Shown piece by piece: positions 393 to 58,500 of a DNA stretch of 64,000 bases (position 1 is the stretch's first letter; every line of letters begins with the position of its first letter). The notes beneath the pieces were generated by a model. The model made no database searches and was not told the origin of the DNA. It saw nothing but the letters and a program-made list of their open reading frames with translations. This DNA comes from Perkinsus olseni (lineage: Eukaryota > Perkinsozoa > Perkinsida > Perkinsidae). The DNA is taken from positions 1 to 64,000 of the forward strand of contig JABANP010000282.1 in assembly GCA_013115135.1 (NCBI GenBank), given 5' to 3'. Both the position numbers and the translations under genes were made by a program.

Positions 393-3300
393 ATGATGAA
401 CGAAATGCAGGAGGTTGTTAGACAGATAATGACGGCAAAGACGAGGAATGAAGAGGTGCCGGGATCGAACCGGGGACCTTTCGCTTACGCAAATACGGTC
501 GGGTGTAGATTTTACTCGCCTATAATACTCGCTTGGGAGAGATTACTCGAGCTTTGACGGACTTGGCCGAGAAGCAGAGCTCGTCCAAAGAGGTTGACGA
601 TGTTAAGCGACAAATAAACCAGCTAAGGCAGCTATTGAACATCAGGTGAGAGGTCCCGAGTACGATTCCTTGTCGAGGCATTTCTCTCTCAGATGCGGCC
701 AGACGACTGAACAGGTGGCTCAACTGAAGCAATCTGTGATAATAACTCTTCAGAGAGAGAGAACCGAAATGCAGCAAAGGTCCGTTCTCTCGCCTCACTC
801 GGATTAACGTATGCTGGCTCAGAATTTCGCAGTTGATGCGCAACGACCTGACTATGGTCATACACCAATGCGATCGTCGTCTGAAGGAAGGACACGCTCA
901 GGTGAGGCGATCCGTGGTTGATTTATTTATTTATCATCGTAGAAGTGTTGTGGCGTAGTTTTTGTGAGGGGGATCCTTACAGTCCCTTGGTTCGGATGAT
1001 AGTAGAGATGGTGTCGTCCGAAGTTCCGGGGTGTTGTTAGCAGATAGCTGGCACCATCAATGCTATGCTGTTCATGAAAGCATGCAGGATTGAATAACGT
1101 GAAGACTTTTCGAATTGACGAAGATTGGAAATAATCGTTGCATCGCACGAACTCTGTTCTGCAGTGAGAAGCGGGTGGACCGGGATCGTTCCCTGTTATC
1201 AGACCCTCGCCCTGAAGAAGGTCCTCAGGCAACTCTGTAATATAATCGACGGCGGAGAGACCCTTGTGACGGAGGTAGTAGCGCGGAAGACACTGCCCTG
1301 GCGGACTTACGGCGTCATCAGCTTCCTGACGACGAAGGCCCGTCGCCAGCCTTGGAGGCGAGTAAGATCTTGAATGACAACCCTCGTTTGACGACCGGCG
1401 GCGGCGGGAATGCTTCGGGGTTGACAGCGGCCGGTTTTCCGCGACAGCAGCCGCAACAGCAGGCGCAGCAGCAGACGGTAAGGCACTGTGGGGTTGTCGT
1501 GCGTTGAAGTAGGCCAGTGGTAGAGCGAGTATCTGTCTCGCGAAAGGTCGTGAGTTCTATTCCCTGATGAGTATCCTCGTCACTTTTCCACATTTTTCCA
1601 ACTATCACCGTCATATAGAAATCTATTCTCCCTCTAGGGGTTTCTGTTTTCGATTCTTCTTTACTGCGTTCAGATCAGCCCTAGCGTCCAAGGCTTCAAT
1701 CGCCCGCAGGCCTCAGCAACCACGCCTGCCACACCCACTAGCAACAACAATACCACTCCAATCGCTACTAATGCTGCATCGGTAGGCTGGGACCGCTCTC
1801 TATCAACATCAATCGCCATCATGAAGCGTGGGCCAGACTTGAAGATTTTGCTCCATTCCTGAGTGCTATCTCCCGAGAGTGTTGGTAGCGTGAGCAACGA
1901 TCGCCTGCTGAGCATACGCCTGTCTAGTAAGCTTTCCCATTGATTTTATATTGGCTAGTGATATCGTAAGAAGGGTGCTCTCGTTCTGTATGTTCCTCGT
2001 TCGTGCACTCGGGTGGAAGAGAAACGACCGCTGTCGGTGGTTCAGGGGAGCGCAGCGCAGCAGGCAGCCTTGACGAAGAGGATCGCCGAGCTAATTAAGC
2101 GTCAGAGTGGGTTCGATAAGGCTGAGTTAAGAGGCGGAGCGAAGTTTTTTCAGGTGGCAATGTATCGTCCCAGCCGGCGATTGCGCAGCTGTTGGCCCAC
2201 TTGCCGCAGCAACAACAGCAGCAGCTTCAACAACTTTTGCAACAGCAGCAGCAGAAAAGTTATGGCGCGGGGACGACGACCCAACAGGTAGGGGTCCTGT
2301 AGGGTGATCGTGCTTGATTCATCAATGTCTTAGCAATCGGTGATGCGAGCCATGAACGCCTCGGCGGCAGCACAACAACAACAACAACGACAGCAGCAGC
2401 AGCAGCAGCAGCGGTCCTTTTGGTAGTAGTAGTGTTAGTTGTTGTCGGTGTGGTATTAGATTCCTGATGCCAGCAAGACGTTCTTCATACACCGGCAAAT
2501 TTCCTAGAGTAGTGGTTGTAGTAGCGACTGCCGAAACACGGGGGTTGGGGCGAAGCATGCTCTACCTGGCTTGGCGAAATGGCAGTTGGTCTGGGAGGGC
2601 AGGTTAACGATTAAGTTATTGGGTGAACGATTGAATAATTGGGTGAACGATTAAATTATTGGGTGAACGATTAAATTATTGGGTGAACGATTGATCGTCG
2701 TTGTTTTTGCAGGTCAATCTGTTCTGTCACAGACATCCGCGGCGAGCCCCTCGGTCGGGCTTTGTCCCTTTATTTCGACCTTCGGATGGTGCAAATTCGG
2801 CGACAATTGCCAGTACTGTGTGGTGCCTAATTTCGTGGCGCGTGACGGAACTTTCGGCTGCCAGGTTCATCCACGTCACAAACAATCGGGAGCCCCTTCG
2901 TCATCTCCCTCCGGCCATGATCGCTCAGTTGCAACAACAACACTCGGCTCAGGTGAGCGTTGAGGGAATGCAAGAATTGCAAGATGAGCAAGTTTGTAAG
3001 GTATTATCGGGGCAAATCACAAGTAGTGCTGAACTGATGCAAGCCATCGCTAACACGGGAGTCGCTAAGCAGGCTCAGCAGACTCAACCCGGTGCCACGT
3101 CTTCCACCTCACAATCGACGTTCCAAGCAGATACAACTGTAGGTGAATGGCGTTGAGGAAATGCAAGTATTGGTAAGATGGGCAAGATTTCGCAAATTTG
3201 TGGTAGGCGTCGGTGTCGTCGTCCTCGTCGTCTTCCTCGTCTGCTACACAGCAAGATCTGATCGCCGCCCAAATTGCGCACCAACAGGAGGGGGTCAGCA

Positions 3301-3752
3301 TGGGCCCGAAGGCAAAGACCATACCTTGTAAATTCAACTCTGCTGGAAAGTGAGAGAATCTTAGGTCGACCCTTGCAAGAGAGGAATAAACATGAATCCT
3401 TCAAGGTGCGCGTATGGATCAAGATGCGCTTATAATCATGGTGGAGAGTTGCCGGTCGGAGCGGCGACCGGTAGCGGCGGCGGCAGACCGGCCAATCAGC
3501 CGACGGCGGCTGCAATCTTGGCGGCTATGGCGAAGGAAACTCGGGTGGGCTGACGGGGAGGGCGACAGAGGGAGTATGTGCTAGTTTCAGGTGCAGCAGA
3601 GTGCCTCGTTGTTGAGCGTCCCGCAGCAGCAGCAGGCTGGAAGGCAGACGGGAGGTGAGAAGACGGTTGGGGTCCTGTTTTCGATCGTGGAATGGAGCAA
3701 GATTGGAAAACGCAATACAACGGCAATGGAAGATTTACGGTCTCTTACGAAG
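393..3752 (+). CDS. Coiled-coil, Q-rich, CCCH zinc-finger protein (multi-exon)
   Basis: The exons follow from open frame plus GT-AG borders: 393-455, 542-645, 693-779, 823-901, about 1258-1477, 1674-1781, 2046-2106, 2154-2287, 2334-2413, 2713 to about 2819, 2875 to about 3138, 3252-3349, 3406-3544, 3591-3654, and 3702-3752. The phases match at most junctions. The first four exons give heptad-rich helix (EITRALTDLAEK, QINQLRQLL, EQVAQLKQ). The middle exons are rich in Q, N, T and P, with runs such as LPQQQQQQLQQLLQQQQQ. Exon 2713 carries CPFISTFGWCKFGDNC, a C-x8-C-x5-C finger whose fourth ligand lies past a splice site I could not fix. The junction 3349/3406 creates a perfect C-x7-C-x5-C-x3-H finger (CKFNSAGKCAYGSRCAYNH). 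CCCH fingers of this kind usually bind RNA. The start codon and true 3' end are not proved, and the 2413/2713 junction does not phase cleanly, so an exon may be missing. Confidence 0.7.
456..541 (-). other. 86-nt intron made of antisense tRNA-like sequence
   Basis: The intron lies between coiled-coil exons 393-455 and 542-645. Removing it keeps the frame (RNEE/ITRALTDL). Read on the minus strand, it ends with a tRNA-style T-arm: GGTCCCCGGTTCGATCCCGG contains an exact Pol III B-box (GGTTCRANNCC), with 4 of 5 stem pairs. The A-box and anticodon arm are degenerate and there is no acceptor stem, so this is not a working tRNA gene. Confidence 0.6.
1478..1673 (+). other. Intron carrying a sense tRNA-like module
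   Basis: The donor GTAAGG follows a Q-rich exon and the acceptor CAG precedes the next in-frame exon. Positions about 1501-1571 resemble a tRNA: an A-box-like GCCAGTGGTAGAGCG, then GCGAAAGGTC, then a B-box-like GAGTTCTATTCC. The spacing is that of a tRNA, but acceptor strands do not pair. It looks like a tRNA-derived SINE head or a decayed tRNA. Confidence 0.55.
2606..2694. repeat. 20-nt tandem repeat, about 4.5 units
   Basis: The unit AACGATTAAATTATTGGGTG is repeated at 2606, 2626, 2646 and 2666, with a partial copy from 2686. It lies in the intron before the first CCCH exon. It is a small minisatellite with no coding sense. Confidence 0.85.
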
Positions 3753-4141
3753 GTGTGGGTGATGACGAAAGCTCACGCTGATGAGGGAGAGTTATGGTAT
3801 GAAGTTCCGAAGGCGGACGGGTGATATCACGAGGAATTATCTGTCATAACTTTGACATTGATTTTTGTGGCGCGCGACAGAAGTTACTATGTGGAAGGTC
3901 TTTGAAGACCCACCAACTGCTTCGCTTCGCTATACTGGCGTTTTGTGTGACGGGAGACAGTCGCTGAATTGTGATGGGGATAATTATGGATAGTGCGAGA
4001 GCACCTTGTGTAGGTCCTGCGAGCACCAGCGTGAATCGCAGCTCGTCGGAGGGTCGTCGCCCAGTGGGGCTGTCGAGCAAAGAAGGGAGGAGTTTGGTTG
4101 GCAGTGACGTGGTGACTGCTGCCTGGTTGAAAGACCGTAAG

Positions 4142-4889
4142 AGATGAAATTGTTAGCGGAGCGAAGCTCACTGGGTCGATTGGCAGATCTCCCTGAACTG
4201 GATTTTGCGAGGAACGGTCAGCCACCGGCCCCTAGTGGTGGTGACACTGAGGTGGTGACAGCGACCGCGGCGGCTGCCCCGCCGACATCCCCGCCCTCCG
4301 CCGGAGGCTCCGAAAGAGGATGGCGGGGGAAGCTGAGCAGGAGGCAGAGCAGCATGAGTCAGGAGACCAACGGCGAGGTAGCATGGTGACACGGTGGTGA
4401 CACAAGGATGGGGTGGGATGGTTGGGTTCGATCCGATTTCATGCGATGCGACATTTCGAGATTTGAGCGATTTGTGGTATCCACCTGTTAAAAACTCGGT
4501 TTCTAATTGTCGTGGAGCATGCCATGGTAGAGAAGCCTGTCCATACTACTTACCGTTGGTTGACCTGAGCTTGCGGGCGCTCTTCGTCTGTCTTTTTTTG
4601 CTGGTCAAGGTTGATGGAAATTTACCTTGTGGTTCGTCGGGTGTTTATAATTCCGTTTCCAAAGAAGTAGTGTTTCTATGCACCAGCGCCAAATTAGCTC
4701 TTCCGCAGTGTGTCGAACAGTAGCGTCTTCCCGAGGCTCGAAAATTCCATAGCAAGGCTTGGGATACTTCGGAATTTTTTTTTGCTTTCAGTCGAGTAAC
4801 ACAGTGGATTTTGGGGAGGTAGTTGTTGAAGAGCCGGTGAATACGAAAATCGAGGAAGGTGGTATTGAATCCGCAGGCCCTCCTCCAGG
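4142..4889 (+). CDS. Unassigned exons downstream of the CCCH gene
   Basis: Two stretches look coding. Positions 4147-4380 encode a disordered A/P/S/G-rich segment (LPELDFARNGQPPAPSGG, then PPTSPPSAGG, SQETNGE). Positions 4791-4889 lie between an acceptor (tttcag) and a GTAAGT donor and encode an acidic segment (SSNTVDFGEVVVEEPVNTK). No domain is recognised. They may be 3' exons of the CCCH gene, because strand and intron style match, but I could not phase the junctions. A B-box-like word GGTTCGATCC at 4424-4433 lies between them. Confidence 0.4.
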
Positions 4890-5354
4890 TAAGTTGCAGG
4901 CGTATCTTAGGTTGAAGATGGTGTTTCATGAGTCAGGTTTAGGCTTCGCGCCCAAGACGGAATCTGGCTGAACGATTGATGAGTTTTTTCATATGCTTGC
5001 GACGCTTCGGTCTTAGTCGCTTCGCAGTGAGCAGGGATCGTCCACCATCCCGTCTCCCTTGAAAGTCTGTCCGTCTTCTCAGTAGGAGGGACTATTGGTC
5101 GCCCTCATTCGACGTCTTACAGACTTTTGATAGTACTTTTTCGTTAACACAACAACAGCTTCGGTATTTCAGCGTGTCGTCGAGTTCCTCAGTGTTAACC
5201 GTGGTGGGGGTTGCGTGGGAAAAGATATTTTTCACTTGGTGAAAAATATCGAGTCGTGAGGCGAAGTGCGGCCAGCTGTGTCATGGGAAAAAGTTCGCGA
5301 AATTTAAATTTTTTTGGTTGTTTCTGTTCCTGACACAGTTTATCCGACACTGGG

Positions 5355-5492
5355 ATGGCGAGCGTTTCAGCGAGACGCTTGCGTCGGAACAGTAGCATTG
5401 AGGAGCATCTCGAACAGTTCCCGGCCATGGTCAAAGCCACCGAGTCATCGACACAGGAATCCAGGACTTGCTATTGCGAGTACCTGAATTAG
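5355..5492 (+). CDS. Small ORF, 45 aa, unknown
   Basis: An ATG-to-TAG frame encodes a basic then acidic peptide (MASVSARRLRRNSSIEEHLE). The composition is like real protein rather than chance, and the reverse strand has no better alternative. It could be the last exon of the gene to its left. The function is unknown. Confidence 0.35.
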   Translation: MASVSARRLRRNSSIEEHLEQFPAMVKATESSTQESRTCYCEYLN

Positions 5493-5825
5493 GATTGTAA
5501 CGCTTGGTGCTGAGTCCCTGAACTCCTGTACTTGCACTGGGCCAGTATATTATGAATAATAGATCATCATGCTGATGGTGGGTGTGAGTGGGGTATGTCC
5601 CGCGGGGCCCTTGATACCGTTGTGCAGGGACGCACTGCGAATCCTGCGCTGTGCGTGGATTCCGGGCAGCCCCTCATACTTGCTTTGCTTGCGTCGTGCG
5701 AACTGTATCCATCCGCCATTTGGCATTCCGCTCACTGAGCAATGCTCAACCCGGCACGCATAGACCCGTCGGCTGATGCTGAGAATTCCTTAAAGCCCCC
5801 CGGCAAGCGGCGTACGCCGCTGCGC

Positions 5826-6060
5826 TTAGAGCTGGGCAACCGCACGGGGTACGTTTCCTAGTACCGTTTCCGTTACCTAGTACGGGTACGGGGAACTAGT
5901 ACGTATTAAATATATTAAGTAACGCATACGTGTATTGAATTATGCCGTACTTCAAGTATGGCGTACTCGTACGGTACTTGGGAACCACTGCGACGGGTAG
6001 TACGGGTACGGAGCCGTACTCTTACCCGTACCGTACTCCGTACTGTCGCTCACCTCCAGC
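5826..6060. mobile_element. TACGG-rich small repeat element, copy 1
   Basis: The stretch is built from words such as CCGTACC, GGTACGG and TAGTACGGGTACGG in both orientations. It starts beside GAGCTGGGCAACC. A related stretch at 33785-33892 ends with TTTGCCCATCTCT, the approximate inverse, so these look like two members of one small family with inverted ends. No coding potential. Confidence 0.45.
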
Positions 6061-6189
6061 TGCGCTGGTCAGAGTACAGCGCAAGTTTGAGAGTTTGACG
6101 ACCCTTCACGATTACTTCACCGTTGTCTCTTGTTCAGCATACTTTCTGCGCAGTTTCTCTTTTCGCAGCGTAATGCTGCTGTTGTTGTT

Positions 6190-6878
6190 ATCGTCGAAAA
6201 TCAGAGCATCGAGTACCCGTCGGTGGTCTCGGAAAATGCCCTCAGTGCGGATGAACTTCTCGACTCGTGCTGGTGTGACCTCTGAGAAGGTGTCCCTGCG
6301 GGCGTGGAAGAAGGCGAGGGATGGTACGATGACGGACGTTTAGAGACCGACTGATCGAGAACACAACACCCGGGTTTTGCCATCTGGAATCCAACCTTAC
6401 ATCTGCTGTCTTCTTGTTATCTTCCACTGAGCTTCGGCGGGGCTTCTTGTCGGTGCGAGACAGGATCAGCGAGACGCTTTACATGGAGGATTGGCGAACA
6501 CCTTTTGAGATTTTCATGCAAAATTTGGCAAAAAATTTGGCATGAGAAAATTTTTCCTCAATTGTGTTCCGTGGAATTTTCCGATGCGAATGCTGCACAT
6601 TTTCGGATTGGAATTATCGAACCGGTGATCGATTTGGCCTGATATTAAATAAGCTTAGTTCCTGCTCTCCGAAAGCGCTCGTGGGTTGCGTCATCGATAT
6701 CATAGAGCGTCCCTCAGCAGGTGGCAACCGTTGGCGCTCCCGGGCAAACTCCGTGATTTCTGAAATGGAGCCCCCAGAGCTGGAAGCACTCTTTGCTGAA
6801 GTACTCAAAGCAGCCCGGGGAAGGAAAGTTTCTGTGGATGAGGGTGAGGGTCTCGTCAAATCGATCATTCATCTATGA
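6190..6878 (+). CDS. Unassigned exons with an alpha-helical C-terminus
   Basis: Positions 6190-6285 encode a helical, acidic stretch (IVENQSIEYPSVVSENAL, SADELLDSCWCDL). Positions about 6640-6878 encode VIDIIERPSAGGNRWRSR, then EMEPPELEALFAEVLKAAR, ending at a TGA. The composition is protein-like and the opposite strand is less so. No family is recognised, and the link between the two stretches is not shown. Confidence 0.4.
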
Positions 6879-6894
6879 TGGGGACGGGACACGT

Positions 6895-7090
6895 CAAACT
6901 TGGATTGGTCCTTGTCAATCTTGCCCGTGTATTATAAACTTGGTTGTGATACTGTCATTCTTGCATGGGATAATTTAGCCCTTGCCAAACTTGGGCTTAA
7001 CAGTGACATTCTCGGTGTTAAAATTTTACATGTGTCAAACTTGCTTGTGACATTGCCATTCTTGCCTGTTCACTATCAAACTTGCACGGG
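6895..7090. repeat. Imperfect repeats of an ACTTGG/CATTCTTGC word
   Basis: AAACTTGG, GTGACATTG and CATTCTTGC recur about every 55-60 nt, in roughly three diverged units. AT-rich flanks up to about 7560 contain no convincing gene. Confidence 0.4.
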
Positions 7091-7633
7091 AAATGCTTCG
7101 AATAGGTGTTAGTGAGCTAACGTAGAAGAAAAATTTTCTTAGAAAATCAGCGGGATCGCGGCCGCGCTGTGAGCCCGTGCTTGCTGTAACTTTGATTGGT
7201 AGAACGCACGTTCGCGTAAAAAAATCGTTAAAAAACTAAATTCTTCGTGTTGGTACCGGTGACCCAATGGTTGGTGAACTCGACATAGTAGGCGGAGAGG
7301 TGATAAAACCTTGTGTAGTTGTAGACTCGTGACTCGTGAAGCTCGTGTAGCTCGATGTAACACAATGAGGGGAGACAGCATCCATGAAAGTTATTAGTAA
7401 ATATTAAAGATACTATGATTAATAAATAAAATAAATATTATATAAATAAGGATAATAATTATACAGTGAGGATAAGCTGATCATGAACGAGATCGCACAG
7501 TCGGAGGCATAACAGTGCGAAGTGTTTGTACGTCAAAGTTGAACTGCGTAGTTAGATGATGCCATCAGAAAGTACTATGCTACTTTGCCAAAGTGGAGAG
7601 GGGATCGTAAAGCGGTGTGTTTCGTTCCATTGA

Positions 7634-9135
7634 ATGCTCTTTGGGCGCCGCTTCTGCAGGCCTTGTCCGGTGTCAGATTCAATCCTTGTGATTTTGTGTG
7701 AACGTTTATCTGCGCTGTCACCGACGGAGATCTCGCTTCGACAAGCGTGTGGATTCCTGAACGCGATATCATCTCTGGGTGAGTTGCCCGACGAGGCCGC
7801 ATTCACGCGCGAACGGCTCGGGAAAGAGGCTTCGTATCACTGGAGCCTCTCCTGTTTTCAGCTCCCGACGTTCCAGTTTCCGCGGAGCTAGAACCAGCTG
7901 TGGCGAACTTGATTGAAATAATTGCCCAGGGTTGCCGAGGAAAGCATGCTGTAGTCGAGCTGATCGCTGCGACACTTTGAACGTCCTTGTGATAGGGCAA
8001 CTCCCCAGGCTTGTCCTTAGCGGACATAGCGTTGTCAGCGCGAGCACTCAGCAGACTGAAGTTGAAGTCGAGTCCGACTTACAGCGACCTCATACAGATG
8101 GCTGTGAGTGATGAGAGAGCGGCGTTCCAATTTTCGGGTGGCTCGAATGTTGTGCTACTTTCGCATTGCCATGGTACGTGTCGAAGAATCCATCGCTCTT
8201 CCGGTATGAGTCGTGATGGGCGATGATGTGTAGTGCGCGAATTGGGCTGAACCGTTGTATAATAGGCTGCCACTGGAGGGTGGTGAGCATATACTGGGAC
8301 AAAGCGAGCATTTTAGTATCGGACCGAGATCATTCTGCTGGCGGAGGAGTGCCGGGGCTGTAATTTTGAATGATATCGCGGTATTAAGAAAGATAGTTTG
8401 GACCATTGAGGAATAGATTAACAGTAGGGGTAAATATGCCCTTGCAAAGACTTGGAATTTCACTACCGGATCGAGACGCTATATCCGGCAGTGGATTGAC
8501 GTGCATGTAGTCGTTTATAAACCTGGACCATAGCATGCCTACCACTCTGGTAGCCTGGCAGTGTTGGGCTGCCTTGGTCTTGGGGGATTTGAGATCGCTG
8601 ACGTTCGATAGATTCACTCGTCTGATGAAGGGTGGGATCGCGCATCGGTGGTGACGCTGTTGTCGATGCTAGCGAGAGATGATTCGAAATCGCATACGAA
8701 TCGGCGGCTTGGTAAGGAGAAGGACTAGGGCTTGGCACCTCAGGTGTTCATGTCGTAAGATTATCGCCGTTGCTATTTGAATTGTGGACAGCTGGGCGGA
8801 GCGAAGCGCTCTGTAGGCTAGGACCGCCAATTAAGCGGTCGTGAGCTTCCACGCCGAATCAGCTAGGGTGTTTGGCGTAAAGTTCCGGTCGGAATTCGTT
8901 TTATTGTGACCCCTGCAGGTGTAGCGATGGAAACTGGCTCGCATGCGGATGACACTGCGATCCAAGGCAGACTTCTTCTTTCTGTGTTACAGACTGCGTC
9001 TTTGTCTCAGGGATAAAACTCAGCCAATGGTGTGCTCACAACGTTGATGCCTTCGATGGTGAGGGTCTAGTCAGCTGCGTTCATCTCGCTGCCAGAGCTG
9101 CGCCGCCGGAGCATGTTGACAGCCTGCTAAAGTGA
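7634..9135 (+). CDS. Helical-repeat protein, OPR/HPR-like
   Basis: The exons are about 7634-7778, 8021-8137, about 8500-8633 and 9011-9135. The junction 7778/8021 phases exactly (G+CG) and 8633/9011 phases (G+GG). The protein is a chain of amphipathic helix pairs: ILVILCERLSALSPTE, ACGFLNAISSLADIALSARA, LSRLKLKSSPTYSDLIQMAV, TTLVAWQCWAALVLGDLRSL, GEGLVSCVHLAARAAPPEHV. The L/A pattern is typical of octo- and heptatricopeptide repeat proteins, which act on organellar RNA in algae and alveolates. No RAP domain is visible. The family call is inference from pattern; the gene call is firmer. One middle exon is probably still missing. Confidence 0.5.
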
Positions 9136-9176
9136 GGATGGGGGGAGCGCCGGTGCACTATCTCGCTGCAGTAGGT

Positions 9177-43496: not shown

Positions 43497-46400
43497 TTAG
43501 CACGACCCTGAGGAACCAATGACCCACTGCGCATGCCGGAGTTTCCTCAGCTCTTCCTCTTTCCTTGCCAACCCTTCCCGCAGCTCGTTCACCAACTCTT
43601 CGCTTCGGTCTCTCCCCGATGCCGCGCGCACGAGTTGGTGACCTCGTGTGACCTCGGCCTTCAACCGCCGGGCATCGGCGTCCCTTCGCTTCATCTCAGT
43701 CGTGTTAGCGATTACGTCCCTTCTCAGCCCGTCTATTTGGGACTCCAAGGCCGAGAGCTGCTCCCGACTCGCATTTGCAGCTATCTCATTAGCGGTCGCC
43801 TTTTCGGATGAATCTTTGAAGTCGGCTGCCAGGCGAGCGCTGAAGGCAGCAGCGATTGAAAACAAGATCGTATTTACGAAGTGCGTTTTGACCGCGGCGC
43901 CCGTACTTCTCCATTCTCGCCTTGTCGAGATCATCTCGGAGGTGTCGTCTCTCGTCACCCATTTCCGTAAGGAGTTGCTCGTACTTATCGATTTTCGACG
44001 TCAACAACGTTCTCTCGTGGGACCATTCGGATGCTGCTGCGCTCAGGGATGTCGTAAGACCTTAACACTCGGATTGCTACAACATGTTTGCCACTGCGGT
44101 GAACACCCCGATCAGACTATTACTTACTAAGAGAAGTGACTCGGGTGAGATCGGAGAAGAGATATCAGCGACCATACCGATGGCCCTGCCCGGATAAGGC
44201 ACTAGGCGGTAGCTGAATTAAATTCAGCTGCCGCCTAGTTTCTTATCGGAAAAATTCCGTGGATTTTCAATGACTCGAATCTATTGATTTTAAAGAGCCG
44301 ATACTCAGCGGGACTCGGGTTTTCGATCAGCAGGTGTCCACCACTATTCGCATAGCAAGGCATTGTCGGACAGACTTTACCTCAGCAAGGCCCAATGAAC
44401 TCACCGCTCAGCTCTCCTGTCTTTCTGGATAGCTCTTCCTCCAGCTGTCGTATTTTTTCTCGGGCTTCGTCAAGTTGAGCAGGCAAATGACCCGCTCTAT
44501 TCATAACGCTCATGCGCTCCAACGCTGCTAGATGTGCCTGAGTCGAATTAAGGAACTCCAAGATTTCAAGATTTTGCAAGAACTGACCTCTTGCTTGGCC
44601 TGGTCCCTCTCCTTCTCGATTCCCCTACAAGCCTCTTCTGATTTACTCAAAGAACTCGAGAGGTGGTTAACTTCAGATTTTAGCCGGTCGATTTCCGCCC
44701 TGTAGGTGCCGCAGTCCCCCCGAAGAGAATCTATCTCATCCCGCGCTCTAAGAAAAAAAGGTGGATACCGCTTCGCTCCGCTCGTCATCACCTGACAGCC
44801 TCATCCCGCATCTGCTGTGTCTCTACGTGGTATCTTGCAGTTTCCTGCATATCGTTAATGGAAACATGTAGTTCATGACTTCTGAGCACCTGGTCCCGGG
44901 TTCGAACCCCAGCAGCGGCACCTCATTTACCAAGGCCCTCTTCAATACAGCGGCCTCCATCTCCATGCGGTTCAAGTCTTCTTTGAGGCGTAGGTTCTCA
45001 GCCTCGATCAAGGCAGCCTTAGCTCGCGCCCGATCTCCGTTCGACCGAGTTGATCTCGGAGAGTCGTCTCGCTGAGCGAAAGAGCTGGTTACAAGCCAGA
45101 AGGTGGTCTCTCCAGTGGCTTATCAGGGCCCGAGGGATTCTGAGTTGAATCAGCGTGGCTGAGTCAACTCAAAAACCGTCGTGAAGGACTAGCCGAAGGG
45201 GCCGCTGTGCACCGAACCGTCAGCTTCTCTCTTATCCCGGTCAACAGTTCAATTCTCACGAGTGCAACGAGCGCTCGATGTGGAGGGACGGACAAGGAAG
45301 ACCTACTGGCGATGCACAAGACTGATCCGCATATCCTCTAGAGGCCGCTGATCTGAGCCGGGAGAGCTCCTCCTGTAACGACTCGATTTGGGCGTCCAGT
45401 CTTCGATTAATGGATTTGCCCTCAGCCAACTGCTGCTCGAAGTCCTTCCGCTCAACAAGCTACAGAGGAAGATCGCTAACGGAGCTGCTTCAAGGGGGCA
45501 GCTGTGATTGTGTGGGGCACACAACTCACATGCCTCCTGGCGCTAGTAGCAACTGTTCACAAAGGCTTGAGTTATAGTACTTATCAGAGTCACAGTGATT
45601 GACTCACAACTGTCGTGTACTGATGATAAGATAGTGGGAACTCCGTGATAGTCTAAGTCTCTTCCATGCCTAGCGGAGTGAGGTGTGGCGTGTCCATTTC
45701 GAGAGCTTCTAACTTTGTGATTTTTTCCTCTGCTGCCTCTGTGATGGAGAGCTCCAGTCCTGTCCCGTCATCCCGTTTGTTCGTGCTTTACGTTATTCAA
45801 GCCGGTGGGTACGAAATCCAGATGCCTCTAGTCGTAGCTGTTTCGTACAGTACCGATCAGGTTATGGCTCTTATCGATACTAATCCCTGCAAACGATAGA
45901 TCGCAAATACAAAGCGATAGATTACATCGTGCCAACTGGGTCTAGCGTTCGGTCAAGGGGGAGTGAGGGAGGCGAGGGGGATGAAGGCCAGCAGCCTTCC
46001 GGTAAACTCGCACTCCCGGGAGCGCCGAAAAGATGCCCCATCAAAAGGAATGGAGCACTACAGGGTGTTCCAATTCGATTTGCAAATCACTAAAACCAGT
46101 ATATCTCAGCAAATACTACGTGTTTGAGTCTGAGACTTGAGTATGGCATGCATACCGAATTGGAACACCCTGTATGATAGGCTCGGAAGATCTTGACACT
46201 GTGATTTCTCCGAGTCCTGTGGACGTGAGCGATGAAGTAAACGGCAAATAAGACTCCCCCAAGAGACCTCTTACATCCCCAGTCAGCCTACCAGCCTATC
46301 TAAGCTAACCAAGGCGCTCTGCAGCTCGGCTTCATTCTTGTTGAGCTTGGCTCGAGTAGCCTTCAGTTCTCCAATCAAGAAGGATATTTTTTTCTCCTGC

Positions 46401-49509: not shown

Positions 49510-50349
49510 TTCGATAAAGTTCAACGCTAGAGCTAGCCAGGGGCTAGCAATAGGTAAAGCCATGTAGTTGTTATGGGTCATAACTTATGGCTGTGATTAT
49601 CCCAGCCCTCCGCTCCCTGGAGGCGGAGGTGGGATACGAGAGACTGCTGACTCGACCCGGACCAGATACGAAGCCGAGCAACTCTCAAGTCCTACTGAAC
49701 CGCGAAGGATCCCAAAAGAAACACAGGCTACTGCCTGGTTGCTGGCTCTGCCACTGATGAAGGTCAAACAGGCCAGCACAGAACCACTCACCGTTCACAC
49801 TCCGAGCCTCTGCATCATTGGGATTCGGGACCTAGCTCTCCAGGAGAGCCCCTCCTGTACACAACCTTGGACCAGTCTGCACCACGACTGCAACGACGAG
49901 AATTGATGAAGTCTCATTTAAGAAACGCCACAAGGTCATGCGTATTCGCGAAAGCTGTACACAGCCGACGGCTCGCAAGTTGCAAGCTGCCAGCCGGCTG
50001 TCGGCTGTGAGCCGAGCGGATTCCTCCCGAATCATAAACATAGCTTCAGAAGTCATGCGAACCACTCCCGAGAAAAGCCCCATCCGCAAGGTGAAAAAGA
50101 GGTGACAAGACGCGCCATCGGGCAAGCAATAGGCTCCCGCTCTGATTCTCCCCCCGGCGTCTCATAAAACGTTCAGATTGCTGCAATCTACTGAGCGATC
50201 TGCTTCACGGAAATAGTATTGTCCTGTAAAGAGAAGGTCATTGCGAATCACTAGGCTTCACGACTTGAACGGATCTTAGCGAAGTGTAAGGCTGTTTACA
50301 GTGTGAGCCTCGGAGGCTCTAATTTAGAGCTTTAGCTCTACATAAGAGA

Positions 50350-50517
50350 ACGTTATGCATCGTGCGTCAAAGAAGGATTCCAGGCAATCTGCTTCTGGAG
50401 ACATCCATGTGCTTGCGTGTGCGATATCGAACGTCACCGTTAGGTCGTTCGCTGCCCAGTCGGTGATGTACTCCCTGATGTCGCGTGCGATGTAGATTTT
50501 CCGGGTATTCTCGCCCT
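50350..50517 (-). CDS. Possible aspartic-protease-like exon, copy B
   Basis: The frame KIYIARDIREYITDWAANDL continues TVTFDIAHASTWMSPEADC and SFFDARCI. The layout recalls the first active-site loop of pepsin-like proteases (V.FDTGSS..WV....C), but the catalytic DTG reads DIA, so it would be inactive even if the family call is right. A frame conserved between the copies supports past coding. Low confidence. Confidence 0.3.
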
Positions 50518-50866
50518 TCGGAAGGGCCCTTTGGAGGGCATCCCTCCCAGAGGGGTTCCACAGGGAGAAGTCCCTCCTCCCGGCTGTTCGATTCGGGACA
50601 CCCCTCTAAGTTAGAGGACGGTTGCCCGAGATCTATTTTCACACGTATGCACAACCAAAGCGGGCCGCTTTAAGCGGCCAAACCGACCCTCATGATCCTA
50701 GTTACATTTCATAGAGTCGACTCGGACAGAGCCCACACTCAACCCACCGGATGAATCGTAGCTCGCAGAGCGCGAAGCACGCAACGTCGCACTCGGTAAC
50801 TGTGCAATAGGTGAACTGAATGTTCAGCTTTTAGTAGGCATCAGTGACGTCAGGGACATATCAGTA

Positions 50867-51213
50867 ATATGTGTGACGGGACGTCACACATATGTCCTCG
50901 CGTACCGTGACGTAACTTCACTGGAGTCTCTCATCGTTATTTCATCGATTATCCAACTCATTCTAACTCACACTGTGTAGAACTTCTACACAGTGTGAGT
51001 TAGAATGAGTTGCGAGTTGTCACTTCTACAGTAGAAGTGACATCGTCTCTCCAGAGTCGCCGTAAGCGGGAACTGATCAAGATCATGATTTAGCTGGCAG
51101 TGGAATCACAATCCAGTGCAGTGTCCCCCCTAACCTCAGGTCACCTGAGTCAGGTGACTCACCTGACTCAGGTGAGGACCTCACCTCAGGTGACCTGAGG
51201 TGAGGTCCTCACC
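50867..51213. repeat. Cluster of five large one-base-centre palindromes
   Basis: 50867-50893 (13-nt arms, one mismatch), 50954-51012 (29-nt arms, perfect), 51018-51042 (12, perfect), 51141-51175 (17, perfect) and 51171-51213 (21, perfect). The last two overlap. No gene is seen from 50710 to 51800. Confidence 0.95.
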
Positions 51214-51818
51214 AGCAGAAGGGCTCAACTCTCGGACAACTCCCAGCCAAGTTCCTTTCCGGACGAGCGTGTTATTCGTGTTTTCGTGTTATTGCTCTGT
51301 ATTACAGAGTCTGTAATTGCTTTTCTGACTCCGCTCTCTAGTGCGAAATTAGTAATGCACGCATGCACAAAGAGGGGTCGGCGCATAATGCGCAACACAG
51401 CGGCAAATATCTAGCCACGTACGGTGTCACCTCCAGTAACCCCCTTTACAGTCTCATTCTTGGTTGCGCAACACACCGGGTTCATGGCACTGAATGCAGG
51501 TTGCATTATAGCCTTCACATCATAACTCTTTGACCTGGGGACACGCCCTGCCTAGTGGGACAAGGTGACGGTCGTCCTGGGAAATTCCTAGTTGGAATTA
51601 TGCTCATGCGTGCAAGAGCTTAGCTCTAGTCCTATCGTAGCGAAAGTGACCATCTAAACCCGTTCTACGATGAGCCTCGTGATAGTGATCGCAGACTCGG
51701 TTTTCATAGCATAGGAAACCCTTGGCCTACTCTAAACATTTGGCAATGGTCTTCTTAGGTCGATCAGTAAGATTCGGGCCTGTATCTCGTTTCAGTTCTC
51801 CAGTCGGCTTCTTTGCTG

Positions 51819-53489
51819 ATGCTCCCTACAATTGCGACTTTCACCGTCATGACTCTGCTGGCTGCCCATGCCGCCCCACCACAAGCGGGAAACATGCGCA
51901 TGCACGTTACGACCAAGGACTACTGCAATCCAGACTTGAAGGACGGTCACGGCAATCCTGCTCCGTGCGGCGTTTCGAAGTCCATGGAGACCTTCGGCCT
52001 GACCCTCCCCGGCATGGATGACGGTGTCCTCACAACCAGAGAGGATATCATCATCACTAACGATGGTCAAGTGTCGGTCAAGGCTTTGCCCAATTACCCC
52101 TACCAGTTCATCATGACGGTGGAGTCATCCGAGTCGACACGTGTCGAACAACTTTACGACCACCAATCGTCTGTTCTCGCCGAAGCTCCTCTCCCAAGCT
52201 ACGTGAGCCTTCTCCACAATGCCGGCATCGACACAGCTGATCTTGAGGCTCAGGGGTGGACCCATGAAGGTGTCGAGGATCTGGATGGTGCTGGTATGAG
52301 CAGGTGGTCTAAGAAGGGTCCAGAAGGAGTCGACACCAAAGATGGCACCAACTACACGGCCCTCTACCAGACTGGTCTTATGCCTGACACTTGGGTTCTC
52401 TTCATCGATGAGGGAACCCAACAGCCCGTCAAGCTGCTCGCCATCGACACGTATGTTGGGAGTAAGGTCTTCCAAGAATCCATCTTTGAACAGTTCGAGT
52501 CCCTTCATGAGGACCTCAGCATCGAATCGGCTACCGAGGCTATGTATCAGACCTACCGGATCGATTCTCATCGCCGCCTCGACGAAGCTACTGGAAGAGG
52601 GGTCCCGTTGGTCATGGCAGATTATATCACCGGTGACTTCCTCCCCGAGAGGTCTCGTGCTTTCTTTGAGGAGCACGAGGCAGCGGACTGGATGAGCGAA
52701 CACCGATCTCTCCGTCAAGGCGTCATGTCCCGAGGAATCGAGTACTTCTCAATTGAGGAAAACTCCGCGGCCGACATCTACTTCCACGCTCTGAGTCATC
52801 GTCAACACGTCCAGGTTTTCAGTTTCGATTTCCCCAAGGGATGCAGTGACGGGAAGTCCGCCGACAGTTCCAGGAAGTACTGCTTGTTCGCCTCCGTCGA
52901 TGTATCTGTAGGCGGGTCCATCGCCGTGAAGGGTGGTATGACGTACAAGGATATCAAAAACCCTGCCTTCAGCGCCCACTTGAGTCTGTCGGCGACCCTC
53001 CAGAAGGACGGTGATGAACTCGTACTCGATCTCGAGTTCGAGGCCGGTGGATGTGCTTTAGTTTTCCAATACGGAGAAGGAGCGAGCCTTACGATCACTG
53101 TCTGCATCCACGGTAAAGCCGGTGGTGAATCTCTTCTTCAACCCGATAAGCGAACCTTCTACGGCGAGACAGGTATCGATGTGAAGTTCTACGTCAACCT
53201 TCCCGTGGTCGGCAGCATCATTAACTGGACTATCAGCGCGAAGGTCGGGTGTACGGCGAAACCCAAGAATGTTATTTCGGCTTACGGCAGCATCGGAACT
53301 CAGGCTTCCGCTAAGCTTGCCGAAGCCAGTGTATCTATTGATCTCAGGGGAAACACTGTTGACCACATCGCCAACAAGTGGGAGTTTAACTCCAACGCCT
53401 ACTTCCATGCTTCAGTCGGAGCTTGGAAACTAAAGAAGTCTTGGGACAAGCAATGGCAGTTGTGGCATGCAGGCCCTACCAAGTTCTGA
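51819..53489 (+). CDS. Large secreted protein, single exon, 556 aa, unknown
   Basis: A single uninterrupted frame to TGA. The ATG at 51819 starts a good signal peptide (MLPTIATFTVMTLLAAHA) with cleavage before APPQ. The N-terminal half is acidic and mixed (GLTLPGMDDGVLTTREDIII, GWTHEGVEDLDGAGMSRWSK). The C-terminal half is beta-rich with paired cysteines (GCSDGKSADSSRKYC, GCALVFQYGEGASLTITVC, TISAKVGC). No transmembrane helix and no recognised domain. Codon use is cleaner and more GC-ending than in neighbours, which suggests strong expression. Lack of introns in this intron-rich window is notable. A RRLDE word occurs mid-protein, not near the signal peptide. Confidence 0.9.
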   Translation: MLPTIATFTVMTLLAAHAAPPQAGNMRMHVTTKDYCNPDLKDGHGNPAPCGVSKSMETFGLTLPGMDDGVLTTREDIIITNDGQVSVKALPNYPYQFIMTVESSESTRVEQLYDHQSSVLAEAPLPSYVSLLHNAGIDTADLEAQGWTHEGVEDLDGAGMSRWSKKGPEGVDTKDGTNYTALYQTGLMPDTWVLFIDEGTQQPVKLLAIDTYVGSKVFQESIFEQFESLHEDLSIESATEAMYQTYRIDSHRRLDEATGRGVPLVMADYITGDFLPERSRAFFEEHEAADWMSEHRSLRQGVMSRGIEYFSIEENSAADIYFHALSHRQHVQVFSFDFPKGCSDGKSADSSRKYCLFASVDVSVGGSIAVKGGMTYKDIKNPAFSAHLSLSATLQKDGDELVLDLEFEAGGCALVFQYGEGASLTITVCIHGKAGGESLLQPDKRTFYGETGIDVKFYVNLPVVGSIINWTISAKVGCTAKPKNVISAYGSIGTQASAKLAEASVSIDLRGNTVDHIANKWEFNSNAYFHASVGAWKLKKSWDKQWQLWHAGPTKF

Positions 53490-53631
53490 AGAGTCTACTC
53501 GTCAACCAGCCTTTTGAGAGACTGAAGTTGTAAAAAAACTTCAGTTTTGGAGTTCCACCATTTATTTAGTCCTTCAGCGAGGGACGCTCGCTTCTTGAGT
53601 CGAACATCTCGAAAGCGTCACTACTGTGTAG

Positions 53632-54141
53632 TTGACGCAAATCGTTTGGCGCCCCCCAAAAGGTCGGGAGCCTCATGTCTTGACCTTTGTTCCATGTGAA
53701 AAGTTCTCACCCTTTGAGGATGCTGCAAAAAAGCAGCTCGGGGACTCGGAGGAGCCGATTGCGTCATGTCTTCGTCTAAGGACAATCGGAGAAGAAGTCT
53801 TCAACAGTTCTGATCATGTCGATGGTTTGGGTCCGCTGACGCTCCCAGAAGTTGCGTTATGGATCAGGGTACGGTCTTGGGGACAGACTTTCCGTTCGGG
53901 CGCCATCGTCGATCAACAATCTCTGGCCGACTGGACAATTATTATTGAGGGTGAGAACCCCCACCGAGAGCTCCTTAGCTTCGACCTGGGTCCGGAGAGT
54001 CTCCGGCTGAGACTCAGGATGTCCAAAGTCCGAGAGTTGGGCACCGTTGCGCTTTGCACGATGAATGGTATGACTTCACGTGCTCCACAGAAGGAATTCT
54101 GCGCTATGTATCACATCTCAGGGCGACTACGAACGAAGTGA
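53632..54141 (+). CDS. Unknown protein, open frame of about 170 aa
   Basis: The frame begins right after TGTGTAG, so it may be an exon rather than start at the TTG. It encodes TQIVWRPPKGREPHVLTFVP, KKQLGDSEEPIASCLRLRTI, PEVALWIRVRSWGQTFRSGA and LSFDLGPESLRLRLRMSKVR to TGA. The composition is clearly coding. There is no recognised domain. It lies 143 bp after the secreted protein in the same orientation. Confidence 0.6.
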   Translation: MTQIVWRPPKGREPHVLTFVPCEKFSPFEDAAKKQLGDSEEPIASCLRLRTIGEEVFNSSDHVDGLGPLTLPEVALWIRVRSWGQTFRSGAIVDQQSLADWTIIIEGENPHRELLSFDLGPESLRLRLRMSKVRELGTVALCTMNGMTSRAPQKEFCAMYHISGRLRTK

Positions 54142-54479
54142 ACCTTGCTTCCTCGGGCACTGGTACTCACATCGTCGAGTGACCAACACTCCTGTTTTAG
54201 CTGATGAAGTGTATTGCGGAGGACAGCTCCCGGTCATTACCCCGGAGGCTTGTCACAGTAGGGATCAGCTCAACCTGAATCCGAGCTGACCTACTGACAG
54301 TAGGCTACTGTCACCCATCAGCTATAAACAAAGTCCGTCTGAAACTCAAGCCAAATCCCACCCAAATGGTTGCCACCATCTTGCTGACTCACAGACCAAC
54401 CAAGCAGGCCCCGTGGCCCTCTTACGAGACCTTCCCAGAAAGGGAACAACGTCTGATTGAGCCGTCAGTAACCCTCAGT

Positions 54480-54530
54480 GGCCCACCTCTAGGTCCCCGG
54501 TTCGAACCCCGTCAGCGGCATTCTATTAAC
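54480..54530 (+). other. tRNA-like B-box module
   Basis: CTAGGTCCCCGGTTCGAACC followed by CCGTCAGCGGCATTC. Same tail (CAGCGGCA) as the module at 44893-44920. No acceptor stem pairing. The region 54150-55010 otherwise holds only a possible exon at 54739-54933 and a second tRNA-like word at 54965-54985 (minus). Confidence 0.45.
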
Positions 54531-55015
54531 TACTCAGTAAGCAAGTCGGCCAAATGTCTTACAGTTACACGGTAGCGATAGTATTTCATTAACACTAGGA
54601 GGAGTACCAATTACACAGCTGAATGATTGAAGTTGGGGTAAAATTAATAGCGCCTTCTCGCTGGGCGTAGCGAGAATGTCTCCATCATTTCGCTAATCCT
54701 CAAAATTACTACAGAAACAGGCCAGCACGAACAATTTCGTGGCGCGCGAAAAACGAGCGAAGCATACATACCGTCTACTTGCTCACGTCGACGAGTATTT
54801 CACTACTGTCAACATCGGCAAGCTCGGCGCTTCCGACCACCTGGGACGAGCGTTCAAGCTCTTCCTTGCCGCGCTGATTGCTCTCGGGAGACACGGGAGC
54901 TTCCGAGCTCTGCAGGCGAACACGACCCACTAAGGAGGCATGGTCGGAAGTACGGTTACTGAAATGAAGGGAGCAGGGATAGAACCCAGGACCTCGCGAG
55001 GGAAAGCCGAGAGCA

Positions 55016-55294
55016 TTACGTATTGTGACTATTGATCTGCCTCCTTAGTCCTCGTTCCTCCTTCTTGTCTCTACTGAGCATGGCCTTAGCACAGGCGCTC
55101 CTCAAAGGCACATCTGCTCGCCACAGCTGGGCGGGCGCTACGGTGACCATCATGACCTGAAAAAGACTCTCGACACTCCCCCAGGGAAAGTCCAATCTCA
55201 TCATTTCCGAATCATTAACAATCGTTTCACGCTGAGGGAGATCTCCAGGATTCATAGGAGGCATCCCTGGCCATGTTTCACAGTCAATAATCAT
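55016..55294 (-). CDS. Unknown exon or short protein
   Basis: The ATG-led frame MIIDCETWPGMPPMNPGDLP continues RLDFPWGSVESLFQVMMVTV and WRADVPLRSACAKAMLSRDK, ending within or beyond a tRNA-like intron candidate. Coding composition is good. It could be the 3' part of the gene at 55543-58811 or a separate gene. Confidence 0.4.
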   Translation of the reverse strand: MIIDCETWPGMPPMNPGDLPQRETIVNDSEMMRLDFPWGSVESLFQVMMVTVAPAQLWRADVPLRSACAKAMLSRDKKEERGLRRQINSHNT

Positions 55295-55542
55295 GGACTA
55301 TGAACGTGGCTATGCCCCTCCCGAAACGCCGGAACAAAAACCGATATTTTCATGCTCCAGCGCGTGCCCGAGCTAGTCTTCTCAACGACCACTATACCAA
55401 ATTTTTGAAAGCTCATAACCATCGAGAAGGGCTTCAAGAGACCCAGCCCTGAGTGTCACCTCCTGCGAGCTTGAGCTGCTGCTGGCGCTGGTAGAACTTA
55501 GACTACTCTCAGCGGGGGGACGATTGCCAGCAGCCGCTACGC

Positions 55543-58500
55543 CTAAATGCACACTCGGGAATACCACATCTTCCCCAAAACATCATCACTCTCACCTTCC
55601 TCCGTCGGATTCGTGACTCCACTCTTAACCCAGAGGTAGTCCAAACGCTTGGGACAGGAGGGAACATCCTGAGCCAACTCTAGCAGATCTGTCGCGCGCC
55701 ACGAAATTATTACCTGGTCACTTGTGACGCCATATTTGGCCAGACTCTCGTCACTTAGATCTCCCCAGTCGCCTTCATAACTCGGGGCTCTCGGCAGGCT
55801 CTCTTTATCCGCATGCATTTGCCACACATCCTGGAACCCCGCCTTGCCCAGAAAATCGCGGACGCGGGCGTAAACAGTCGCGCTCGACTGGGCAGTCGGG
55901 CTCGTGTCCTCATCGGAAGATCTTGAGGTGGTACACACCGTCCGAGACGGCGATGATGACGGCGACTTCGGCAGGACCTGACGCAGGCTGATAGTAAAAC
56001 ACTATCCCTAATTCACGACTGCTAGTGCGCTCTCGCATACAATACGGAAAAGGAGGCTTCAAGTTAACTCTAGCCAGCTTTGAATAGATCTGTTGTTTTC
56101 CGAGCGTTCTTGACGAATCGGCCAACCCTTCTCAATTCAACCTCCGAATCATTCCGATCACTGTGTGCTCGCAACTGATCGAGAGCGCAAGAAAGTCAAG
56201 GAATTATTATTCCCTCCCGTCAGATCGTCCACCTTCTCGGTATTGAGGTGTCAACAAGGAGTTTCGGAAGCGCAAGTTCGGCACGCTTCCGAGGTCTCTG
56301 ATACCACTCCATCACCAAGAGAGCGGTCAAAATAACAGCAAAGTGGCTCGAACAGGAATCTGTCGTCGCTGTCCGCCATAATTTAGCTAATTATCTTCTA
56401 TTCTATTACTTTAGCGCTCGCCCCGGAGTCCCTGCCGGTGCCATCGATGTTCCAGTCGCCAGTCATAGCCGCCGCTGCCACACGAAGGCCTCTCGAGGAA
56501 CACTCTCTCTCGAGATAGGCAACAACGTCGACAACAACTTTCTGAGGGAAAATGTCCGAAATAGGGAGAAATTCACCCATAATCGTCGCTCCATCTATCA
56601 CTACCAGCTGAGCCAATTTGACATCGGGATCGTGACCAGCATCAAGATGCGTGGTTACTACGATGATTACCTGTGCATGGACAGTATCAAGCATAACACA
56701 GAACTCATTCGAGTGTGAATTTTCCGGCTTTTCCTCCAATCAGTAATCACTACGAATGCAATCTTCAGATTTTCAATTCAGACTTTTCAGATCGATTTCT
56801 CAAATGGTGGGGAGCAAGATGTGGGAGAGTTGAGACTCTCAATATAGGCGCGAAACATAGGGGGGCAGAGGGAGCAAATGCCCCCTCTACTGCCAAGCTC
56901 GGGGAGGCGCTGCTCCCTCTTTGGCCTGAGCTGTGTACAGGCGTACGAACGTCCGCGTGTAGGTGGGAATGCCCGTTTTGACGAAATTCCGCACTTTACA
57001 CACACAGCCAAGGCCAATTTGCGATAAACGGACTCGAGTATTCATTCATTACGGCGTTTACGAACAACTTCTGTATCGTCAAGTTCCAGACAAGGGCTCG
57101 GAACCTTGGCTACCCTTGACATGTCCCTGTTCATTGGGGTCCCCAATGAACAGGGACATGTCCAGGCTGTCCAATTTGGGGAAGTTGCACCCCCCAGTGA
57201 GATCGCACTTGGCGCCTCTCAACTTGAGAGAATTACGGTATGACGATGTGCAAATTTATTTGATCGCTTGACCCGAGGGACCGCTTTCTCGCTCCGCTTC
57301 CGTGTAGTACATCTTCTCCGCGGTCAAGAACAACTCCGAGAGCCCCCTTGGATGCTAGGGCATCCTCACCAGTCGCAACAGTGAATCGAGAAAACCTGGA
57401 CAAAATGACTTCACAAAGAATAGAACCAGCAACCTCCCGCTCTGAAAGCCAACACTAATACCACTAGACTAATCACACACATAGATATTACTTCTCCATG
57501 AGTATCGGCCATCTTGACATTATTACTAATCCTGAGTCCAAGAATTTCGTCGGCGCTGAGCACTCGCAGAGGTACGTTCCAAACGCTTTGGTGGCGTACT
57601 TCAGCTGCGTCCCTGCAAGACAACAACGCTACCACCAGGCGCCCAGCCCGCGGTCACGATGAAATAATAACAAATTCAAGGGGTGGTTCACGAAATTCAA
57701 AACATCGTTCCTGCGCTTTAAAAACGATCCTATGCAGAAGGACCATTCCGTTAGGAGATCGAAACCAAGGACAGGACCACCCTCTTACGATTCTGAACGT
57801 ATCTTATGAGCTGCCCTCTAGCAAAGAAGCGTCCGCAGAAGAGGGTATTGACCATGCTGGCTACAGCAGACTGTCGACCTGCCCATGCCTCTTGCAGCGT
57901 TACAACCTGTGAGCACAGCATGAGGAGGTCAATGATGCATCTTTAAATTGCATATGAATAGCGTCCATAAAGAACGATCATTCCGGGTGACGGAGAAGAC
58001 AAGATAAGCAAATATGAGGCCACCATGCCACAGTACAACAATGCGGGCATTATGCAAAAGAAGAGGCCACTCCGCCGTCCTCGCTCGACGTGGCATAGCG
58101 GCCGCATTCTTACACGCGGCATTTCTCTACTACAGGCTGCATACCACACCACGGATATCCTGGCTGAATCGCAGATGCACCCCCATTGTGTGAAACGCTA
58201 GCCCAATACGCACTACGCGTTACACGACGCGAAATGACTCCATTTTACGCCTGAAAATTATTCGGCCAAAACGCCCTGACTACATCCAGATCGTATGTCT
58301 GGGCTTGCTGCTCGATATGTCGACAAACCCGCTGAGCTCTCTCAGGGATACGGGGATCCAAACACCCTGGGAATCTAGCCCGAACCTGAGACGAACCAAA
58401 CGCCGCAATAGACGCGAAAGGGTGACACCATTCAAAAGGCTTGGTTCACGGAAAAGTGGCACTATCGGAAATTCTTGATACGCGGGAAAGCAATATTTTA

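Follow-up and report, generated by a model that had tools for sequence, protein, structure and literature searches.

How new introns arise is an old open question. tRNA-derived short interspersed elements (SINEs) exist as dispersed copies that carry a B-box and tRNA-like sequence. Introners have been surveyed on a large scale, and in the part of that paper available to us most of them are concluded to move by DNA transposition (Gozashti et al. 2022, PMC9860276). Introner elements are also described, in the accessible part of the report, as invasive repeated introns in the alveolate parasite Amoebophrya (PMC7789003). Here we analyse positions 1-64000 of a 68,397-base contig of the shellfish parasite Perkinsus olseni (JABANP010000282.1 of GCA_013115135.1, an assembly of 61.5 Mb in 968 contigs), a stretch of 64,000 nucleotides which we call the window, together with copies of its tRNA-like motif across the assembly. 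A dispersed unit of 31-50 nt, resembling the 3' part of a tRNA, makes up almost all of many GT-AG introns of 41-69 nt, where it occurs in both orientations. We consider it fairly likely that Perkinsus carries an introner-like element that comes from the 3' end of tRNA-like, RNA-polymerase-III-type (Pol III) sequences.

A dispersed tRNA-like unit in short introns

The unit runs from an anticodon or variable loop through a T-arm and the 3' strand of an acceptor stem to a run of T (T-run). Its layout is AGGTC (the variable loop, often preceded by AATCGRA, the 3' side of an anticodon loop), a T-arm with the B-box, 11 nt, a discriminator base and the T-run. In genome-wide pattern counts, which include real tRNAs and for which the reversed pattern served as control, AGGTCNNNGGTTCGANYCC occurs 881 times against 2, GGTTCRANNCCNNGNNGCGGCA 47 against 0, GGTTCGANYCC 4071 against 284 and GTAAYCGAAAGGTCNNNGGTTCGANYCC 41 against 0. 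From the top 69 places of AGGTCNNNGGTTCGANYCC (contigs C1 to C21), taken in list order regardless of context, three were dropped, two of them known tRNA genes (C8, C17) and the third close to the end of a contig, which left a sample of 66 copies in 60 regions. Three of these 66 are tRNA genes (L058, L067, L081), and two repeat sites already present in L009 and L010 (L086 and one in L099).

In the AGGTC set (61 sites) there is hardly any sequence signal upstream of about -20; it begins between -19 and -9 (T33, A37, A38, then TCGRA) and continues downstream as AGGTC, T-arm, a variable stretch, CA and the T-run. AATCGRA is present at five or more of its seven positions in 20 of 63 sites, against 1.8 expected. 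The distance from the core to the first TTT is exactly 11 or 12 nt in 27 of 63 sites, against 0 of 63 after shuffling. As many as 19 of 20 variable positions agree between unrelated loci, and in the 24 pairs of greatest similarity the common block starts at or near AGGTC, or, for L066/L054 and L071/L075, at the GT of the intron. The sites were chosen for their B-box, but an A-box is rare, scoring at least 11 of 12 in 8 of 86 sites, three of them real tRNAs, where about 2 would be expected, and A and B boxes at tRNA spacing are thus not a property of the set. A D-arm word, the single 12-mer CAGTGGTAGAGC, occurs 164 times against 26. Of the 100 places listed for it about 62 belong to four tandem clusters, and a 5' D-arm piece is thus not comparably dispersed. 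Because the A-box is rare and the D-arm word is mostly confined to tandem clusters, we take the dispersed unit to be the tRNA-like 3' part. The tandem clusters themselves have a regular spacing of about 152 nt on C108 and C296, 360 nt on C142 and 330 nt on C112. In 30 introns, one of them from the window, which were hand-picked and are as such not an unbiased sample of lengths, intron length is 47-69 nt, and 47-57 nt in 26.

Genomic context was assigned with a simple gene finder that had been trained on the same assembly, in which an intron-length cost was added after a version without it had called 53% of control positions and 51 of 62 sites intronic. With the tRNA genes and L086 dropped, 62 sites remain, of which 25 are assigned to introns no longer than 80 nt, 6 to longer introns, 12 (19%) to exons and 19 (31%) to intergenic DNA. 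Control positions from the same loci (n=2581) are distributed as 12.0% short introns, 14% long introns, 40% exon and 34% intergenic, and those from five regions totalling 50 kb (n=4455) as 11.5%, 12.5%, 40.5% and 35.5%, respectively. The sites are therefore enriched in short introns, depleted in exons and about as frequent as expected in intergenic DNA. Orientation within the short predicted introns is 14 sense to 11 antisense. Scoring of splice signals by themselves, with no coding model, gives a score of at least 3 on either strand at 51% of 63 sites, compared with 12% among 3000 random positions. An earlier splice scoring with a threshold of 6 gave 52% of 63 sites against 18% of 267 controls (p ~6e-8), and 40% of the 30 sites of a GCGGCA set (p ~0.002).

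Intron borders were examined by protein homology, and ten of 20 spliced peptides matched Pfam families:

L045: kinesin
L055: thiamine pyrophosphate (TPP) enzyme, antisense intron
L059: eIF4E
L060: adenylosuccinate synthetase, antisense unit
L064: alpha/beta hydrolase, below the curated cut-off
L071: HATPase_c
L075: SNF2
L094: protein kinase (CK2-alpha)
L104: amino-acid transporter
L134: L7Ae (NHP2)

The best Protein Data Bank (PDB) alignment of CK2-alpha covers 51 of 51 residues and is gap-free over the junction, as are the best alignments of adenylosuccinate synthetase and NHP2; that of eIF4E is ungapped at the junction and has a one-residue gap away from it. The phosphonopyruvate-decarboxylase-like gene of L055 (C5:76828-78722) contains, about 130 nt apart, an antisense and a sense T-arm intron. 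Its alignment to a phosphonopyruvate decarboxylase chain continues across both and has its gaps elsewhere; the peptide of the second intron alone has no Pfam match. Protein homology thus supports the GT-AG borders of about a dozen introns, and, as judged from these alignments, the spliceosome would be expected to remove them exactly.

The kinesin intron bears on how such introns arose, for its position is read through without a stop in each of the 11 other kinesin matches found in the genome. At the SNF2 intron one of two other matches reads through without a stop, and the other, which contains a stop, was not counted. Gain by insertion is favoured because the intron is essentially the unit and the other kinesin matches are uninterrupted. 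When the joined exon flanks of 21 introns (20 loci; 27 flank pairs available) were searched in the genome, a second copy was found in the assembly for 11, with similarly spaced flanks in 11 of 11; nine of these second copies were fetched and all nine contain the unit, and the insertions therefore predate those copies. When these copies are compared, differences are seen at 2 of 99 B-box positions, at 10 of 206 in the remainder of the unit and at 85 of 2112 in the flanks. The units are not under visible constraint, and these differences are too few for a claim of selection on the B-box. The second copies are about 90-99% identical and some are collinear between contigs (C8/C134, C7/C340, C204/C206 and others), which suggests that the assembly contains both of two divergent haplotypes, or both members of duplicated blocks.

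Units and introns in the window

The B-box pattern GGTTCRANNCC has 8 matches in the window at 6 sites (461, 44898/9, 54499, 60591, 60883/4 and 63985; two of the six are palindromic), where 0.99 are expected and the maximum of 100 shuffles is 4. An extended T-arm position weight matrix (PWM), trained on 26 genome copies that include the 44.9-kb site of the window and its second copy, exceeds 13 bits six times in the window, and 20 shuffles yield no such match. A looser T-arm PWM has 12 matches at 10 places (two on both strands), with a mean of 0.8 over 10 shuffles, and a strict T-arm pattern demanding four paired T-stem positions has no match in the window. The introns and units to which these matches belong are as follows:

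456-508, plus strand: intron of 53 nt with an antisense 3'-tRNA-like unit; gene model, frame kept, B-box at 461-471 on the minus strand
646-692, plus strand: intron of 47 nt, sense, GTGAG-AGGTCCCGAGTACGATTCCTTGTCGAGGCA-TTTCTCTCTCAG; PWM match, gene model, frame restored
1478-1673, plus strand: candidate intron, sense, with A-box-like and B-box-like modules; sequence, PWM match at 1545, open frame
44890-44930, minus strand: intron of 41 nt, almost wholly an antisense T-arm unit; homologous proteins, same intron in the second copy (L027)
54490-54523, plus strand: T-arm unit AGGTCCCCGGTTCGAACCCCGTCAGCGGCA; B-box, PWM match
54959-55019, minus strand: intron of 61 nt, sense unit, ending AGGTCCTGGGTTCTATCCCTGCTCCCTTCATTTCAG; PWM match, gene model, open frame
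57396-57491, minus strand: candidate intron of 96 nt, sense, with A-box-like and B-box-like modules and a T-run before the 3' splice site; open frame, PWM match
60577-60610, minus strand: T-arm unit; B-box, PWM match, no small frame-compatible intron found
60838-61138, plus strand: dispersed SINE-like repeat with a B-box (60883) near one end and a (GAAC)n stretch
63960-64000, plus strand: first 41 nt of an intron of 47 nt that ends at contig position 64006; antisense unit, B-box, open frame

The best supported of these lies in a minus-strand coiled-coil gene. Its 41-nt intron, GTAAATGAGGTGCCGCTGCTGGGGTTCGAACCCGGGACCAG, corresponds to an antisense T-arm unit, and the protein spliced accordingly is gap-free there against P. 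olseni (95-96% identity) and P. chesapeaki proteins. The adjoining 45 nt (44845-44889) encode VLRSHELHVSINDMQ, which recurs unaltered in two P. olseni proteins and, with two changes, in one P. chesapeaki protein. Because this conserved peptide would be lost with an 86-nt intron, the true intron is 44890-44930 and not 44845-44930; the gene finder had chosen 86 nt and an earlier splice caller 41 nt, and homology decides for the latter. At the first intron of the window the frame is kept at both 53 nt (456-508) and 86 nt (456-541), and the gene finder picks the shorter. GTGCC at the 5' splice site is complementary to GGCAC, the 3' end of the unit. We regard 456-508 as the more likely, a choice that stays tentative because the gene finder erred at 44.9 kb and because a search for homologues of this gene returned 17 candidates, none significant.

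A first-pass annotation of the window, made from the sequence alone, had reported this excess of B-boxes, and both its chance estimate of about one and its positions, to within a few bases, agree with ours. Its two antisense introns of 86 nt each (456-541 and 44845-44930) fared differently: the second is 41 nt, its other 45 nt being conserved coding sequence, and the first does keep the frame at that length and is more likely 53 nt. The intron that it placed at 57396-57491 has an open frame, and the gene finder called no gene there. The tRNA-like modules that it saw in 1478-1673 are present as A-box-like and B-box-like sequence in an open frame and have no covariance-model match; the borders are not confirmed, the gene finder having set another end (1517, in a cut stretch). 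The intron that it began at 63960 can end at 64006 with an open frame. Two further introns had been overlooked, at 54959-55019 and at 646-692, the latter being nearly all T-arm plus T-run.

The SINE-like repeat at 60838-61138, about 300 bp in length, has a CGCTCCGC end and is a family separate from the unit; of 87 candidate copies 40 were scored, and all 40, its own copy included, are at least 91% identical over about 130 nt. Elsewhere in the window, in a region otherwise intron-dense, a DUF6740 (PF20525) gene at 51771-53486 is a single open frame of 572 residues, and among the 19 matches listed for its protein the 16 with a named organism are all from Perkinsus (best P. olseni 84%, P. chesapeaki 71%, P. 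marinus 70%).

Proposed insertion of the unit and rival explanations

Several results weigh against introns made by insertion of a tRNA-like element. The Rfam tRNA model has no match in the whole window at E<=1, nor at E<=10 in the two introns that look full-length (57396-57491 and 1478-1673), and a tRNA covariance model has none in four A-box-like copies outside the window (L044, L061, L078 and L079); a real tRNA in L058, as positive control, scores 62 bits. ARAGORN likewise finds no tRNA in the window. Pairing in the T-stem (positions 49-51 with 63-65, 63 sites) is no better than in permuted sequences. A source element in which a D-arm is joined to CGAAAGGTC was sought with one pattern that had 0 copies, and the source was not found thereby. 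Ten of the 20 spliced peptides have no Pfam match. The gene finder is crude, with wrong borders at CK2-alpha (L094) and at the 44.9-kb intron that were fixed by homology and that the earlier splice caller had placed correctly, and it assigns 12 of 62 sites to exons and 19 of 62 to intergenic DNA. Among the 11 second copies there is no presence/absence polymorphism (one further L056 copy matched one flank only), and in the 30 hand-picked introns there is no in-register excess of target-site duplication between left and right borders.

These results bear on what is being inserted. The tRNA likeness of the window elements consists of sequence motifs, and their structure has no tRNA match; insertion of a full tRNA gene is ruled out by ARAGORN and Rfam on the window and by the T-stem permutation. 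As the T-stem lacks covariation, the sources are tRNA-like and not intact tRNAs, and may have been those of an old SINE lineage keeping only the B-box. The proposal of the first-pass annotation, that tRNA genes or tRNA-derived elements become introns, is accordingly supported for partial-tRNA-like elements, which form introns in many genes and in both orientations, the site of one being uninterrupted in 11 other kinesin matches. It is not supported for tRNA genes as such, given that most copies are the 3' part only, that T-stem pairs lack covariation and that the two full-length-looking copies in the window and the four A-box-like copies outside it have no covariance-model match. That annotation had also named an even spread of tRNA-like hits between introns and intergenic DNA as an outcome that would speak against it; the comparison favours introns (25 of 62 against about 12%), with intergenic copies hardly depleted (31% against 34-36%).

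Other explanations of the same introns must be weighed. Fragments of tRNA-derived SINEs may have inserted into pre-existing introns and been tolerated there, with no intron created, as the presence of a SINE-like repeat with a B-box, the nearly balanced orientation and the 19 of 62 intergenic sites, hardly below controls, might suggest. We consider this unlikely, as the introns consist almost entirely of the unit (the window intron has 41 nt, and 26 of the 30 hand-picked introns measure 47-57 nt) and 11 of 11 other kinesin matches are uninterrupted at the same place. A motif that is not mobile at all, and that arose or was kept by function as a selected intronic site or a TFIIIC (B-box) site, is in our view quite improbable. 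It would agree with the fixed blocks among freely varying T-stem and acceptor positions, and with a B-box that differs at 2 of 99 positions between second copies where the rest of the unit differs at 10 of 206, but that difference is small and the flanks are similar (85 of 2112), both orientations are present, and the variable positions too are common to unrelated loci, at up to 19 of 20.

The remaining two explanations concern the route by which copies spread. An ancestral T-arm intron copied by reverse splicing is consistent with the common blocks of L066/L054 and L071/L075, which begin at the GT of the intron, and with the lack of target-site duplications in 30 introns. However, the other common blocks begin at AGGTC and not at a splice site, and 11 of the 25 copies in short predicted introns are antisense, which reverse splicing of a sense intron does not yield, making this route very improbable. 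We give least credence of all to a non-autonomous DNA transposon that resembles a T-arm by chance. Most introners propagate by DNA transposition, according to the part of the survey available to us (PMC9860276), and orientation bias is not clear here, but no target-site duplication was detected in the 30 introns, terminal inverted repeats were not noticed by eye among the compared locus pairs, and a T-run exactly at the place of a Pol III terminator, together with the anticodon-loop signal, fits the 3' end of a tRNA.

The reading that we favour, an introner-like element from Pol III-type 3' ends, suggests how the introns may have formed. Reverse transcription would carry the 3' portion of a tRNA-like Pol III RNA into new sites, often with 5' truncation, and a unit landing in an exon would become a minimal spliceosomal intron. 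In the sense orientation the GT would come from the anticodon loop (GTAATCGAAAGGTC, GTAA) or the variable region (GTAGGTC), and the terminator T-run would serve as polypyrimidine tract, with a CAG nearby. In the antisense orientation a GT close to the complement of the 3' end of the unit would be used, together with CAG and a pyrimidine tract supplied by the complement of AGGTC. Insertion was probably RNA-mediated, a route proposed because the 3' end of the unit is fixed and its 5' end variable. We infer that the introns are new; no presence/absence pair was found.

It is conceivable, if somewhat doubtful, that the 3' ends of Pol III transcripts are general raw material for Perkinsus introns, a 5'-truncated complementary DNA of 30-50 nt working in either orientation, and that a motif GCGGAGCGAAGCG marks another such family. 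This motif, often followed by a T-run and CAG, occurs 735 times genome-wide against 0 reversed. It is exact in the window at 44770 (minus strand), 63701 (plus strand), 4157, 8797 and 58978, and has one mismatch at 2135, 58948 and other places; its 11-mer core with at most one mismatch has 10 window matches against 1.58 expected. Two of the window matches are within predicted introns (44748-44791 and 63670-63733). In 18 distinct contexts sense splice signals accompany it in 9, against 14% at random, and antisense signals in 2, against 13%; GCGGAGCGAAGCG is possibly a second miniature intron family.

Comparison with introners and SINEs

If our reading is correct, a family from tRNA 3' ends adds an RNA-polymerase-III, and probably retrotranspositional, route to intron gain, and its 41-69 nt introns in conserved genes, in both orientations, show how little sequence a new intron needs. 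Public proteins of three named Perkinsus species should make the prediction of gain directly testable. A unit so short and diverged could escape methods that seek highly similar introns, to judge from the accessible methods of PMC9860276, in whose main text, as available to us, the strings Perkins-, tRNA and SINE occur nowhere. Among the titles and abstract openings listed in a literature search there was no description of tRNA-derived introners or of Perkinsus introners, and among the matches listed the Amoebophrya paper is the only one with both words Perkinsus and introner. The finding is real and unusual, and as a variant of introners it was not found described within the scope of that search.

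Introners are related sequences that sit at many unrelated positions in genes and are each spliced as an intron, as copies of the Perkinsus element appear to be, and the available part of the survey also reports copies that carry one splice site and families without target-site duplications or inverted repeats (PMC9860276). The Perkinsus unit differs from those described there in being a tRNA-like 3' end of 31-50 nt that is used in both orientations. The introners of Amoebophrya, as presented in the accessible part of that report, are repeated introns of non-canonical type that carry inverted repeats (8-20 nt) and direct repeats (3-5 nt) (PMC7789003), whereas those of Perkinsus have GT-AG borders and a T-arm. 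With respect to SINEs, the Perkinsus unit shares the B-box, the tRNA-like sequence and the dispersed copies, but most of its copies lack an A-box, body or tail and are the 3' tRNA-like part alone. A tRNA head joined to a body and tail was not found, as the common signal stops at the T-run. Sequence-related introns at many non-homologous positions, a property of introners, were found. By the features tested the Perkinsus element is neither a tRNA gene nor a standard SINE, and it works like an introner.

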